64,000 nt of DNA from Crambe crambe (Eukaryota; Porifera; Demospongiae; Poecilosclerida; Crambeidae), in NCBI GenBank assembly GCA_963924555.1, contig OZ004585.1, forward strand, positions 2,989,488 through 3,053,487. Direction: 5' to 3'. Of this stretch, positions 30,067 through 36,540 are shown piece by piece. The stretch's first letter is position 1, and each line of letters begins with the position of its first letter. A model generated the notes under the pieces. That model was not told the DNA's origin. It saw only the letters and a list, made by a program, of their open reading frames with translations, and did no database searches. The position numbers and the translations under genes are program-made.

Positions 30067-31259
30067 TAAAGGCTTTAGACCACTTATGAAGATCAGCTTT
30101 GTGTAACTTCCACCATGTAATAGGGTCTATTTCACAAGATACATCTTCTGCTGCAGTCAAATACATGGGTAGTTCTGACTTCAAATCATCATTAATAGGT
30201 ATAGAATCCAAAAGGTAAATGCATGGAAGGATTTTTAGCTGTGGGTTTAAACTCATTTACCCGAGATGGTAAGAAGTAACGAGCTGCCTTAAAAGCAAGC
30301 TTGAGGTCACAATCAAACTTTGTCTGAAAGTAACTATAGGCTGGTTGAACACAAGATTTAGCATAAGACACAAGTTGTTGTTCTCGTGCAAGATCACCTC
30401 CAGATGGTTTCTTTGCAACAGCTCTCTCATTAGGATAGTGTTCTGCTGTGATGGCAGTGAAGAGAGTACTCAGACGCTCATATGCAACTAAAGCCAAAGA
30501 TAAGTGGCCATGACAAAGGTCTCCATAGCGTCAACAGTGATGGCAAGTTCCATTTTTTACACTTAGCTGCATCATTAAGAATTTCAAGCAGTTTACTGGA
30601 AGTGGCAGGTGGCAAGTCATCATGCACTTTCTAAAAAGCCTGTTACATCTCTAAAGGCATTATGAACTTGATGAACCACTTCAAACCTGCTCCACTATCT
30701 TGTAGCGGAAAATGATGGAGGGGATAATGTTTGAGCCCTCCAGGATAGGTGTGATTTAGGACAATCCAATCCATGCCTTGGAGAAATCATCTAGCACAGG
30801 TGTCTTCATGTTTTTACTGACACGGTCAATTGTGTGGGAGAAACAACCAATATCCTATTTGATTGTATAAACGGCCACTATCTTAAGACCATCGCTACTG
30901 AATTCACAGAAGCTTGATCACGCATAGCTGCAATAACTAAATCTGAAGAGATTCCCAACCCAGTAGATAATATGATTTGTTGGGCAATTTCCTCCCCTGT
31001 CATGCTTTTTACAAGTAGCATCAACTTGCAAACACATTGCTTGATAGTCCAATCATCTGTGATATACTGAAGAACAATGACCATTGCTTCACACCAAGGG
31101 CGTATCGACCCGCTGAAGGTGGGGAGAGGGCATGCAACTCCCGCACAGCCTGTATAGCCACCGAAATGCTGGAGGTTACTAAAAATAGATCGCGGTTTCG
31201 CGTCACGTTTCGTCACTACTACTACGCGCGCCCACGAACAGCTGTAGCTGTTACACAGC

Positions 31260-32470
31260 ATGGCTGAGGCAAACTTCTTTGTTTATGACCAGGAATTGGA
31301 GGAAGAGATAGAAATGGACACCATAATTTTTTTTGAAGAAGATATTGAGGTTGAAGAACAGATGGCTAGGGAAATGAGCATGGATGATCCAGAGGATAAC
31401 ACTGGTAGCTATAATAATTTGCATGAACACAACATAAACACAACAACTAGCTATAGGTTCATCCTTCCATAGGTTCTTCAGTCATCAAATCACCTTCTGG
31501 ACCTGGACCTTCCATACCTGCACCTTCTGTACCTGTAAAGAAAAAAAAAACAAGACTGCTAAGGAAAGAAGAGCGTAGCCTGGTACAAAATATTAATACG
31601 GCAGCAGTAGAATTACATGTAAAAAGATCAGTACCCCCTGGTCTCGTATCATCCTTATTTCCTGAGCGTAAGAGATTTTGGGATTCTATTACTGACTCTG
31701 AACAGCTTAAAACCTTTATAGGACACCTTGTTGACAAGTATATTTCACTTTATGAGAAGTACAGTAAAGGGAAGGATAAATACACCAATCTGTACCTTGC
31801 CTGGCTCAAAGTTATTAGAAATTTTACTTATAAATCACAACAGACACAATCTACCAAGGCAGAGTGGGCACCAGTATTAGCTAAGCATGACACTACAGTG
31901 TCAGACAGTGTTCAATCCACAGTACTAGCCAGTATACTCCATGCTGTCCAAGAAGAAATTCAGTTGCAACTGGCTAACCATATTGAATCACTAACAGAAG
32001 GACCAGCCTTAACTACAGAAAAGCCATCTGATCACACAGCCCTTTATAGAATCTCAGGGTGGGCTTTAAAATCAGCTATAGACTACCGAACAAAATATAA
32101 AACAGTAAAATCAGAGGATGAACTTCAACTGCTTAAAGCATTGAAGCGATCACAAGTTTCCAAGACAACATTACCAGCTGGTGCTCAATATTTGGATCGT
32201 GGAGTATCAGATGCACTATTGCTACAACATTTCAGTAATGCAGTTGATGGTGTACTTTCAACTGCAACTACTGAAGTAATTACAAGAGTCCATGGAATCT
32301 TATTAACAAAGATGTACAATGCAAGAAGCAATGAATTCTTGCGCTCAATTGGAAAAATTGAATGCTTCAGAAAAAATAGGGCAGTAGATGTGAATATTGG
32401 CTTAAGAGACAAACTTAAGTCATATGCAGCTGACAAACAGTCCAGTACTGTAACAACTTCAAATAAATAG
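31260..32470 (+). CDS. Second gene of the P-like element: 377-aa protein of unknown function
   Basis: Exons 31260-31404 and 31482-32470 join in frame (GT-AG, phase 1). The ATG lies about 85 bp inside the left TIR. The N-terminus is strongly acidic (EELEEEIEMD-like, EEDIEVEEQ). A Pro/Ser linker (SGPGPSIPAPSVP) and a basic KKKKTRLLRKEE patch follow, which could be a nuclear signal. The remainder looks largely helical and Lys/Leu-rich. No known domain was recognised; no DDE or zinc-finger motif is visible. It ends about 40 bp from the end of the transposase gene. Both frames appear intact, so it is probably a real accessory protein of the element. Its role is unknown. Confidence 0.65.
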
Positions 32471-32509
32471 TCACTCTCATACTCACAGTTCATATTTATC
32501 ATCATCTGA

Positions 32510-35500
32510 TCACCTTTCATTTTTTAAAACACTCACCACTTTTTGTAACTGATTTCCGAGCAACTTCCGTCTGAGTTGTGATTGCCGTATGTTAAGGGGT
32601 GTGTCCCAATAGTCATCCTTTGGCTTAGTGCCCACTACCTGTCGTCTAGTGAGCAATACAGCTTTAGCACTTTCATAGCTGTGCCCTGTAAGGTTGCCAC
32701 TAGTTCTGTGCTTCAGTTGGCCAAATAGTGTCTCAACACCACTACCATTCACTCTCCTAGGATTAATGTGGTGCCCAGGATGACTACATAAAAAGTCTTT
32801 CACCAGTCCACGAAATCCATAAACTGTCACACAAAGAAGATCCCAAGTCTATGTATACAGGGCACACACATACAATGGTGTACTATACGATGGACATTAA
32901 ATAGAACATTAGGATTGCTAAAATACATACCTGCCATGCAATAAACCTTTTACTATCAACTCCATCATCAAACTCCCCAGAAGATACCAGTTCCTCTGCC
33001 CAGTCCTTGAAATATTGAAACCCTTCATCCAAGCGCTGGCTGAATCCCAGTGCCTTCATAATCAAAGAAACGGGTCTTCGATCCAAGGAGCGTCTGTTCA
33101 AAAATCTTATTCAGAGCAACCAGGTATTTCGTTGTGGCCAATACTTCTTGACGCTCTGGGCCTGTGCAGTTTGTTGCAAATTCTAACAATTCACTGATGA
33201 CTTCATCTTGCTACAGTGGGAGAGAACACATGGTGATATTTAAATACACTACTTGCAGTGAAAATCGAAGTATATTTTCCATTCTACATAATTATGTATG
33301 TACACGCAACACACAACCCTGATGCATATATGCACCTGCATAACTTTTGAAGGCATGACATTCAACCACGTCCATGAATCTCTCACAATAAAACTCTCCT
33401 TCAGTTTAGGAACTCTTGTCACCTGCCCAGCTTGAATGCGTCCCACCTCCCTCTGATACAGGTCTTGAATTCAATGCCATTCGTCTCCAAAGACCTTGTC
33501 CCTCCTGTCCCCCTAGGCCGAGATTGGAAGAGCGCTGATACCATGTTCTTTAGCTGCCAATATTAGTAAACACAGAGTGCAAAGATTCTAATTATTACCT
33601 GGTGACTAGGACAAATCACAAAGTGTACCCGGCAATCAGTATAAGGATTCACAAACCATGTCTTCACCATGAATCTGTCACTTTCAGAAACACTCAGTTT
33701 AAACCTAAATAAAGTATCATACATGTAGTCATAAGTGTTTTATTAACTAAGGATTTCACCCACCCATATGCTTTGCGATCAGCACCTGTCATCGCCTTGA
33801 TCATACTGAGATTTGAAGACGCTCCATCACATACAATAGCACATGTTTCGAATCCACATTTGTGAAACTTGAACATAGCATCCATTACTGTTGGTAACAG
33901 AAATGTGTGATCTGCAGTCTCCTCACTGGTGTAATGAGGGCCAATTATATCCACCTATAGGTTCATAAGTACAGATTTTCTTAAAATAAGATAATAAGTT
34001 TACCTCTGAGGTCAGGTCTCGCCATAGGGTCTGCGTCTTTTTTTGGCGAAACTCTGGGTCAATAGTCTTGTACACATCACATAATGAACTCAATTCCTCG
34101 TGAGACATGCAGTGGCCTATGAACTTCTGGTTCCTGCTGCTCCATACAAGTCTGACTCCCACCTAAATAAAATAAAGTAATTATGCTCACAGTAACACAA
34201 TCCCACCCACCTTGACTTCGTCAATGATAAGGACTCCATCTCCAGTAGGCAAAACTTCACGAGTTACTTCATCATCTGCAGTAAAAATCTAGCTACCAAA
34301 GTGTCCAACTGATTAGAGGGATGGCCACATGTATCTCAGGGAGTCTTGTTTGGACAATTCAAGTGACTGGGGTACACATTAAAGCGTGTTCACTATGAAT
34401 CCTATGCACTTTCATTACCGGTCTTTCTTTTCTTTTTTTCTTCCAAAGCACGCCTCTTCTCCTCAACCATCACCAGGTACTGTCTTCTTTCCTGCTCTAA
34501 CCGATCCATACACTCTCCAGTACCTTCAACATTAGCACCTACATAGTGCTTTAGGGTACGCACAGATGGGAGCTGCAATAGCTTAAAACTTCTCAAGCCT
34601 TCATAAGCTGCAGGGCTCCTAGTATACACTGCAAGTGCTGCAAATAAATATGCTATAGTACACTGTCAAGAGCCATGCTGATGTATTACTTCTCTACCCA
34701 TTCGAACTGTAATGGCATTCCACCGGTTCCCCTTCTTGCCAGTAACTATGTGTGCAAAAACCAGTCACATACTTATTAATCAATGCACATCATTAGTAGG
34801 TATGTAACACACCTGAATTTGCCTGGTCTTTCTCATAATCCAATCGTTCTACCACATCTTCCTCCCATGCTGTACGTAAAATGTTATTCTCTTCACCAAA
34901 GTCATCTCCACGAGAACAAATTTCTTCAATCACTTTGGAATCTCTTTGGTGAATTGCACGCACGGTTTCCAGGAGTTCATCATGTTGCTTGTCGTTCATC
35001 TCACAAGTAAATCGGTTGCAGCCAGGTTTCTCCGGTCCTTTGCTATCCGTGACACTCTTCTCATCTGACTCTCAGGTGACAAGTATTTCAGTGGGTAATT
35101 TGAATCAGGTCAAAGCCTGGATAACCAGTCCACATTTTCACTCTTTTGAACCAGCTGTCTAATATCATGGGTTAGCCGCCAGGTGTCTCGAAGGGGACTA
35201 CCATGTGGGTGCTTAGCATTAGATGGAACATGCCACAGCATACATTTCAGTGCATCCATCCTATTAAAGGGAAGGCCCCACTCCCGCAAATTCTTTGTTT
35301 TGAAGCGAATTTCAGTATGAGGATAGTTACTAATTCCAGGGCAAAGCTTGTACTCTGACGTTGAAAGCTGGTCCAAGTATGGCTTTAGTATTTCAAAAGA
35401 ATATACACCACTGGTGACAGTATGAAACCAAACTTGCCACTTATACAAAATTGAGTCATCATGAGCATAAATACAGAGACGAGGATTTTGTAAAGGCCCA

Positions 35501-35845
35501 AATTCTGAAGAGACAGTTACAGCCCTATAAGGAGTATAAACAATAATGTTCAGCAGTATCCCTCTAGAAGAATCAATAATATTATGATAGCGTGTTAGGG
35601 TTATTTTTATAGTACCTTGATACGACTATCCACTCTTGACCTTGTTCTACATTCAGTGTTGAATACTGCTCTTTCACCAACTGGAAGATTGAGCCTAGTT
35701 CCACCGTTGAACTTGAGGCAAACTTCTGACGGGTTGAGGTAGAAATAGGCGAATTCCTCTGCAGTCGCTTGTACTTCCTCAGCACATTCCTTGCAGCAAG
35801 CTGTGTTGGAGTTCTTGGACTGGCACGCCTGGAAGGTGACTCCAT
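32510..35845 (-). CDS. Multi-exon P/THAP9-like DDE transposase
   Basis: Coding blocks in order on the minus strand: 35845-35616 (MESPSRRASP start), 35524 to about 35110, about 35040-34810 (MNDKQHDELL), about 34630-34410 (LLQLPSVRTLKHYVG then a KR/E coiled stretch), about 34280-34210 (GDGVLIIDEVK), about 34160-34005 (VGVRLVWSS, TLWRDL), about 33955-33750 (VDIIGP, CDGASSN), about 33690-33600 (CPSHQ), short exons to 32940, and 32830-32510 (GVETLFGQLK). The LIID, CDGASSN and VETLFGQ motifs match the RNase-H-fold acidic residues and insertion domain order of P-like transposases. The exon-1/exon-2 join (35616/35524) is in frame; most other borders are approximate. No THAP zinc finger was seen at the N-terminus. 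The gene looks broadly intact. Confidence 0.75.
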
Positions 35846-36540
35846 ATGGCCATCTCTCTATAGTACTAGTACGTCATGATGATAGTCAGCTGATTTCATG
35901 ACCTCACCACGCGTCATAGCATAGCGCGCTGAAATCTATTTTTAGTAACCTCCAGCATTTCGGTGGCTATACGAGTTGCATGCCCTCTCCCCGCCTTTGG
36001 CAGGTCGATACGCCCTTGTTCACACACATGCATTGATCCGTCAAAAATGGTAGATATAATATGTTTGTCAGCTATTTCATTCTTCAATCACCTCATTTCT
36101 TCATGAAGAATAAATGGCAGCAGTTGCCAGAGGTTAGATGAACTAGTAAGAATAAACCCAAGTAAAATTGTCAATCTTACTGAGTGGAACACCTGCTTTC
36201 AATATTGCAGTGACTACTTGAACTCTGTAAACACGAACTGAGTCTGGTAAAGTCATGCCTTCAGGATAACTTGGAATCAAATTTTGAGAGCTTCAATAAT
36301 GTTACCCTCACACTCACGTTGGCTATTCTGAACCCATCTCTTCTTTCCCCTCTGGATTTTACATGGAAAGATATCTTAGTAGCCACTTCCTCATGACAAG
36401 CAGCACAGAATAATTTTTTGCCTCGACACCAGAGTGCCGAGGCACAGTGCCGAAGGCGACTATCTATGATGGTACGTATTAATAGCACGTGCAATGATGC
36501 GCGGTGATGCATATCGAGCACGTGCATTAGCAAGCTTAGC

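Follow-up and report, generated by a model that had tools for sequence, protein, structure and literature searches.

Results

Organization of the element

The DNA analyzed here is a stretch of 64,000 nucleotides from the genome of the sponge Crambe crambe (contig OZ004585.1, positions 2,989,488 to 3,053,487 of the forward strand), to which we refer as a whole as the window. It contains a P-like transposon of 4,924 bp (31095-36018, numbered within the window) that carries two genes arranged tail to tail (Table 1). The stop codon of the plus-strand gene ends at position 32470 and that of the minus-strand transposase gene lies at 32510, with 39 bp between them. An earlier reading of the letters alone (the sequence-only reading) had proposed that a P-like transposon lies at exactly this position and bears a second, convergent gene, with stop codons about 40 bp apart, and our analysis bears out each of these points. 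We think it probable that this transposon encodes its transposase in two pieces, with the C-terminal domain (CTD) being provided in trans by the second gene.

The minus-strand gene consists of several exons. Two of the motifs by which the sequence-only reading recognized it, CDGASSN and GVETLFGQ, sit in its open frames, and the third, LIIDEVK, is likewise read from minus-strand DNA, outside all listed frames of at least 50 amino acids. In better-preserved relatives, the catalytic subunit possesses the RNase H fold and the GTP-binding insertion of P transposases: matches above cut-off were obtained for PF21787 (the N-terminal portion of the RNase H domain of P-type enzymes) in L015, L017, L039, L040, and L041, for PF21789 (its C-terminal portion) in L039, and for PF21788 (the GTP-binding insertion) at many distant P-like loci, among them L039 and L041. 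At the window itself, the piece at 33694-33954 scored 22.3 bits against PF21787, under the cut-off of 24.6, and there was no PF21788 among the matches listed. The window gene can be tied to the P superfamily through its close siblings and family C. A helix-turn-helix Pfam family remained under its cut-off at the loci scanned, and THAP gave no match in the N-terminal pieces scanned, whose first exons were modelled only approximately. By eye, we noted a cysteine motif near the N-terminus (C-x2-C, then YR..LR) in L039 (4529-5362), L041 (4108-5355), and L042 (4880-5503), which is possibly another zinc-binding part.

The catalytic frame ends early

The chain of the Drosophila P transposase continues for about 220 residues past residue E531, first as a disordered linker and then as a helical CTD. 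The end of the L041 protein matches residues 501-553 of this enzyme, around E531 (E 4e-6), one of the catalytic residues (PMC7776569). In our survey of 23 loci, seven of which had no motif match, the distance from the catalytic glutamate to the stop codon, read without intron models, was 64-76 residues in 14 of the 16 remaining loci and shorter in L016 (32) and L067 (14). It amounts to 73-74 residues in the window, L010, L011, and L017. The second gene follows directly behind this stop codon on the opposite strand.

Pairing and co-inheritance of the two genes

We searched the genome (143 Mb in 119 contigs) for relatives of both genes. All four near-complete copies of the window family contain the pair, as do all three copies of a diverged family (L015, L016, and L017), whose second protein is about 30% identical and whose layout is again convergent. 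Relics at about 50% identity (L012, L013, and L014) retain parts of this layout. Distant P-like elements (L039, L041, and L042) possess a convergent second gene 30-65 bp from the transposase stop; the pairing, being found also in these much more distant families, is not peculiar to the window copy. Separately, we observed at L014 (5371-6124) a deletion derivative of an intermediate type, with pieces of both genes lying convergent and close to each other.

Across the genome, at least 59 second-gene matches have a transposase match no more than 5 kb away, and 56 of these pairs are convergent, two lie on the same strand and one is divergent; by chance, fewer than 0.01 neighbours would be expected per match. 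These counts are lower bounds, as they were taken from the best 100 of 276 and the best 100 of 379 candidates, with the last 9 of 109 transposase rows (extra pieces of loci already counted) left aside. When we inspected the 3 kb downstream of 12 seemingly unpaired transposases, picked by hand from 42 mainly for their long open frames and hence not a random sample, ten proved to have an opposite-strand second gene and two did not. The trees of the two proteins, built from 21 pairs (about 16 of them distinct), are nearly identical (Mantel r 0.947, a value reached in none of 10,000 permutations); 13 of 18 splits are common to both, and no conflict is supported at 0.9 or above in both trees. The question raised by the sequence-only reading, whether both genes always travel together, is thus answered mostly in the affirmative, the exceptions being the two sampled transposases, a second-gene sequence without a transposase match (L044), and transposase pieces without a second-gene match (L035/L046).

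The second protein

Splice sites of the plus-strand gene were chosen by GT/AG and reading frame, not from RNA, and joining of its two parts yields a protein of 377 amino acids. Pfam assigned no family to it, and scans of viral contigs with either the window protein or a profile of the distant second proteins recovered no relatives. A comparison of types A and B (L011 versus L012) gave dN/dS values of 0.14 for the middle and 0.16 for the C-terminal part of the second protein, with synonymous sites near saturation. For the recent copies L016 and L017 the value was 1.3, based on six changes, and for the catalytic core (L015 versus L017) it was 0.55. Two comparisons involving the window copy had been read out of frame and were left aside. 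Such values fit long-run selection on the protein together with neutral decay of single copies.

The predicted fold of one distant second protein resembles the CTD of the P transposase (6p5a_B). PF12596 had no match over its cut-off (best E 0.65 genome-wide and 0.032 for a single protein), and a search of the PDB sequences with the distant profile returned only a designed helical bundle (E 2). Next to its CTD-like part, the L047 model has an N-terminal helical region (residues 1-145) with only low-Z fold matches. The sequence-only reading had suggested an accessory factor, which we regard as incomplete and replace by a specific proposal: the missing CTD of the transposase. It is rather unlikely that the product of the second gene is an accessory factor in its own right (for DNA binding, regulation, or export) and that its CTD likeness is a coincidence among helical proteins. 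Precedents for such a layout are MuDR (mudrA/mudrB) and Harbinger, autonomous DNA transposons that have a second gene besides that for the transposase, the two MuDR genes being convergent. Their two-gene layout is like that found here, but they belong to different superfamilies, and neither of their second proteins is known to be a part split off from the transposase. Against an accessory factor speak the catalytic chain, which lacks exactly this domain, the top-ranked fold match of the distant model, which was the domain predicted beforehand, and the lax PF12596 matches, all of which fall inside these second genes. For the distant families, the case for a split transposase is fairly strong.

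We infer that the second protein of the window is the same domain, because its position, orientation, and spacing (39 bp compared with 30-65 bp in L039, L041, and L042), as well as the early stop of its partner, agree with those of the distant elements. The best comparisons between window-type and distant profiles gave P values of 0.006-0.008, with a DRGGL motif paired in order, and none of 200 shuffles reached the best score. Alignment A4 of the window type gave a P value of 0.033 against the distant profile. Two further alignments gave a P value of 0.016; their shuffle control, in which shuffles scored up to 135 compared with 26 observed, was counted as no support. In a comparison of eight sequences with the distant profile, the window protein had an E value of 0.9 and L012 one of 1e-4. 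Several results weigh against our interpretation. No clear sequence similarity joins the window-type and distant second proteins; the family-C profile alone gave a P value of 0.39 against the distant one; window-type proteins, used as queries against the genome, recovered types A, B, C, and E and no distant-type frame; the model of the window-type protein from the relative L017 has a pLDDT of 53; and a further exon of the catalytic gene is formally possible. The lack of a clear sequence link and the poor model, together with the acidic N-terminal segment, would also be explained if only the distant families were split and the window-type gene (types A, B, C, and E) encoded an unrelated protein in the same place. 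We consider this improbable in view of the shared position, orientation, and spacing, the partner chain, which stops just as early (after 73-74 residues in the window, L010, L011, and L017), and the ordered motif common to both types. Transposons do take up host genes, and some second-gene fragments stand alone (e.g., L044), but capture of a host gene by a single element, or an artefact of chance or assembly, is very improbable; with no systematic search for free-standing host copies made, we rejected host-gene capture and assembly artefact on the ground that many diverged families have the pair and that the trees of its two members are congruent.

Age and decay of the window copy

Besides the window copy, the genome contains three near-complete siblings (L009, L010, and L011), from which it differs by 1.1-1.5% substitutions; among all four copies the range is 1.1-1.9%. 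At 12 places, bases present in two or all three of the siblings are missing from the window. The largest of these gaps, 190 bp at about position 32205, costs the plus-strand gene 44 codons and a 58-nt intron and keeps its frame open, which is why the sequence-only reading saw a clean 377-residue protein; its coordinates and length were correct, but the protein has lost an internal part and derives from one of about 421 amino acids. Across the 190-bp stretch, the frame is open in L009 and in L011, and it is shifted in L010. In the transposase region, whose exon limits are approximate, the window has gaps of 16, 13, 16, and 4 bp, and every one of the four copies is gapped relative to the rest. 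The family is therefore fairly young, as had been suggested for the copy, but the window copy itself is decayed, and the impression that both of its genes are largely intact did not hold.

Ends of the element and insertion site

The terminal inverted repeats (TIRs) of the element begin CAAGGGCG and are longer than the approximately 75 bp previously noted; an 11-bp segment present in the right TIR of the siblings is absent from that of the window. The 7-bp TTCACAC duplication was read correctly at both ends (Table 1). In silico removal of the element along with one copy of the duplication leaves an uninterrupted frame of 92 amino acids, which supports the boundaries of the element. This frame lies on the minus strand of the joined flanks (30878-31094 and 36026-36087), runs for 92 residues without a stop, and looks similar by eye to one found in L045 (8387-8821). 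The element inserted into an older gene, probably that of another transposon.

Table 1. Features of the P-like element and its insertion site (positions within the window).
Feature	Position	Strand	Evidence
Left target-site duplication, TTCACAC	31088..31094		Sequence
Left TIR, 96 bp	31095..31190	+	Inverted-repeat search; copies elsewhere at 93-97%
Second gene, exon 1, acidic N-terminus	31260..31404	+	Open frame, spliced translation
Second gene, rest of coding part	31482..32470	+	Open frame, sibling comparison
Catalytic transposase gene, several exons, damaged	32510..35873	-	Open frames, siblings; exon limits approximate
Minus-strand frames (1)	35110-35625, 34793-35071, 34402-34665, 33923-34162	-	Open frames
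Minus-strand frames (2)	33694-33954, 33025-33210, 32883-33110, 32510-32848	-	Open frames
Right TIR, 85 bp, 11-bp gap	35934..36018	-	Inverted-repeat search, sibling comparison
Right target-site duplication, TTCACAC	36019..36025		Sequence; empty-site frame

Both TIR starts were present in 17 of the 24 loci inspected. The 7-bp duplication is perfect in 15 of these 17 copies (three of the 15 representing one site repeated on contig C7) and matches at six of seven positions in the other two. The repeated site is that of the short copies L022, L023, and L024, which are spaced by about 39.95 kb on this contig of 115,406 bp; this suggests a 40-kb tandem unit or one unit that was assembled repeatedly. 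Short copies of 590-650 bp, taken from the best 40 of 118 candidates of a TIR search, possess the TIRs and match the element at their ends over about 95-350 bp, and neither gene is whole in them. An Rfam scan of the window gave no match.

Discussion

P transposase is the textbook example of a eukaryotic transposase that consists of a single protein, and its CTD sits on a loose linker and reaches across to the partner subunit. For the element described here, we propose that the minus-strand gene would make the catalytic subunit and the plus-strand gene a helical protein that supplies the CTD in trans, and that the two products would come together on the TIRs, where they would jointly cut and join DNA. 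On this model, the two chains would bind to one another, and the element would require both. A CTD made separately could reach the complex as a protein of its own, and the extra N-terminal helical region of the distant second proteins (about 145 residues) could, speculatively, dock in place of the linker.

The element shares with the Drosophila P system (6p5a/6pe2) the homology of the catalytic core, the RNase H and GTP-binding families found in its relatives, the cut-and-paste, TIR-bounded type of element, and, as predicted for a second protein from the distant families, a CTD-like fold. It differs in having two convergent genes instead of one, in a catalytic frame that ends 64-76 residues after the glutamate, and in the lack of a THAP domain in the pieces scanned; in a canonical P element a single gene would encode a catalytic chain that includes the CTD, which is not what we found. 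Target-site duplications of the P element are 8 bp long (PMC7776569), and we speak of a P-like rather than a canonical P element because the duplications found here measure 7 bp. THAP9 is one chain with a C-terminal domain and generates 8-bp duplications (PMC10983969, PMC7776569). THAP9 and the zebrafish Pdre2 elements have a P-superfamily transposase, as does the element studied here, but the single chain of THAP9 contrasts with the two chains proposed for the latter. In line with the view of the sequence-only reading that the arrangement is undescribed, we found no description of a convergent two-gene P arrangement in the open-access literature (subscription journals and Repbase reports were outside the scope of this search).

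Taken together, we regard it as likely that a large, old branch of P-like transposons in this animal runs on a two-subunit transposase whose chains are inherited as a pair. If so, the single-chain transposases known from flies and fish would represent either the fused product of the split state or its unsplit ancestor, and which of the two states is ancestral, split or single chain, would become a testable question. The linker would be shown to be dispensable, and a natural two-component system would be at hand from which the role of the CTD can be learned. Separate supply of the DNA-contacting domain would offer the element a natural brake on its activity. In one animal genome at least, an identity would be gained for many frames whose function is unknown, and annotators would be warned that such frames are halves of transposases and not host genes.
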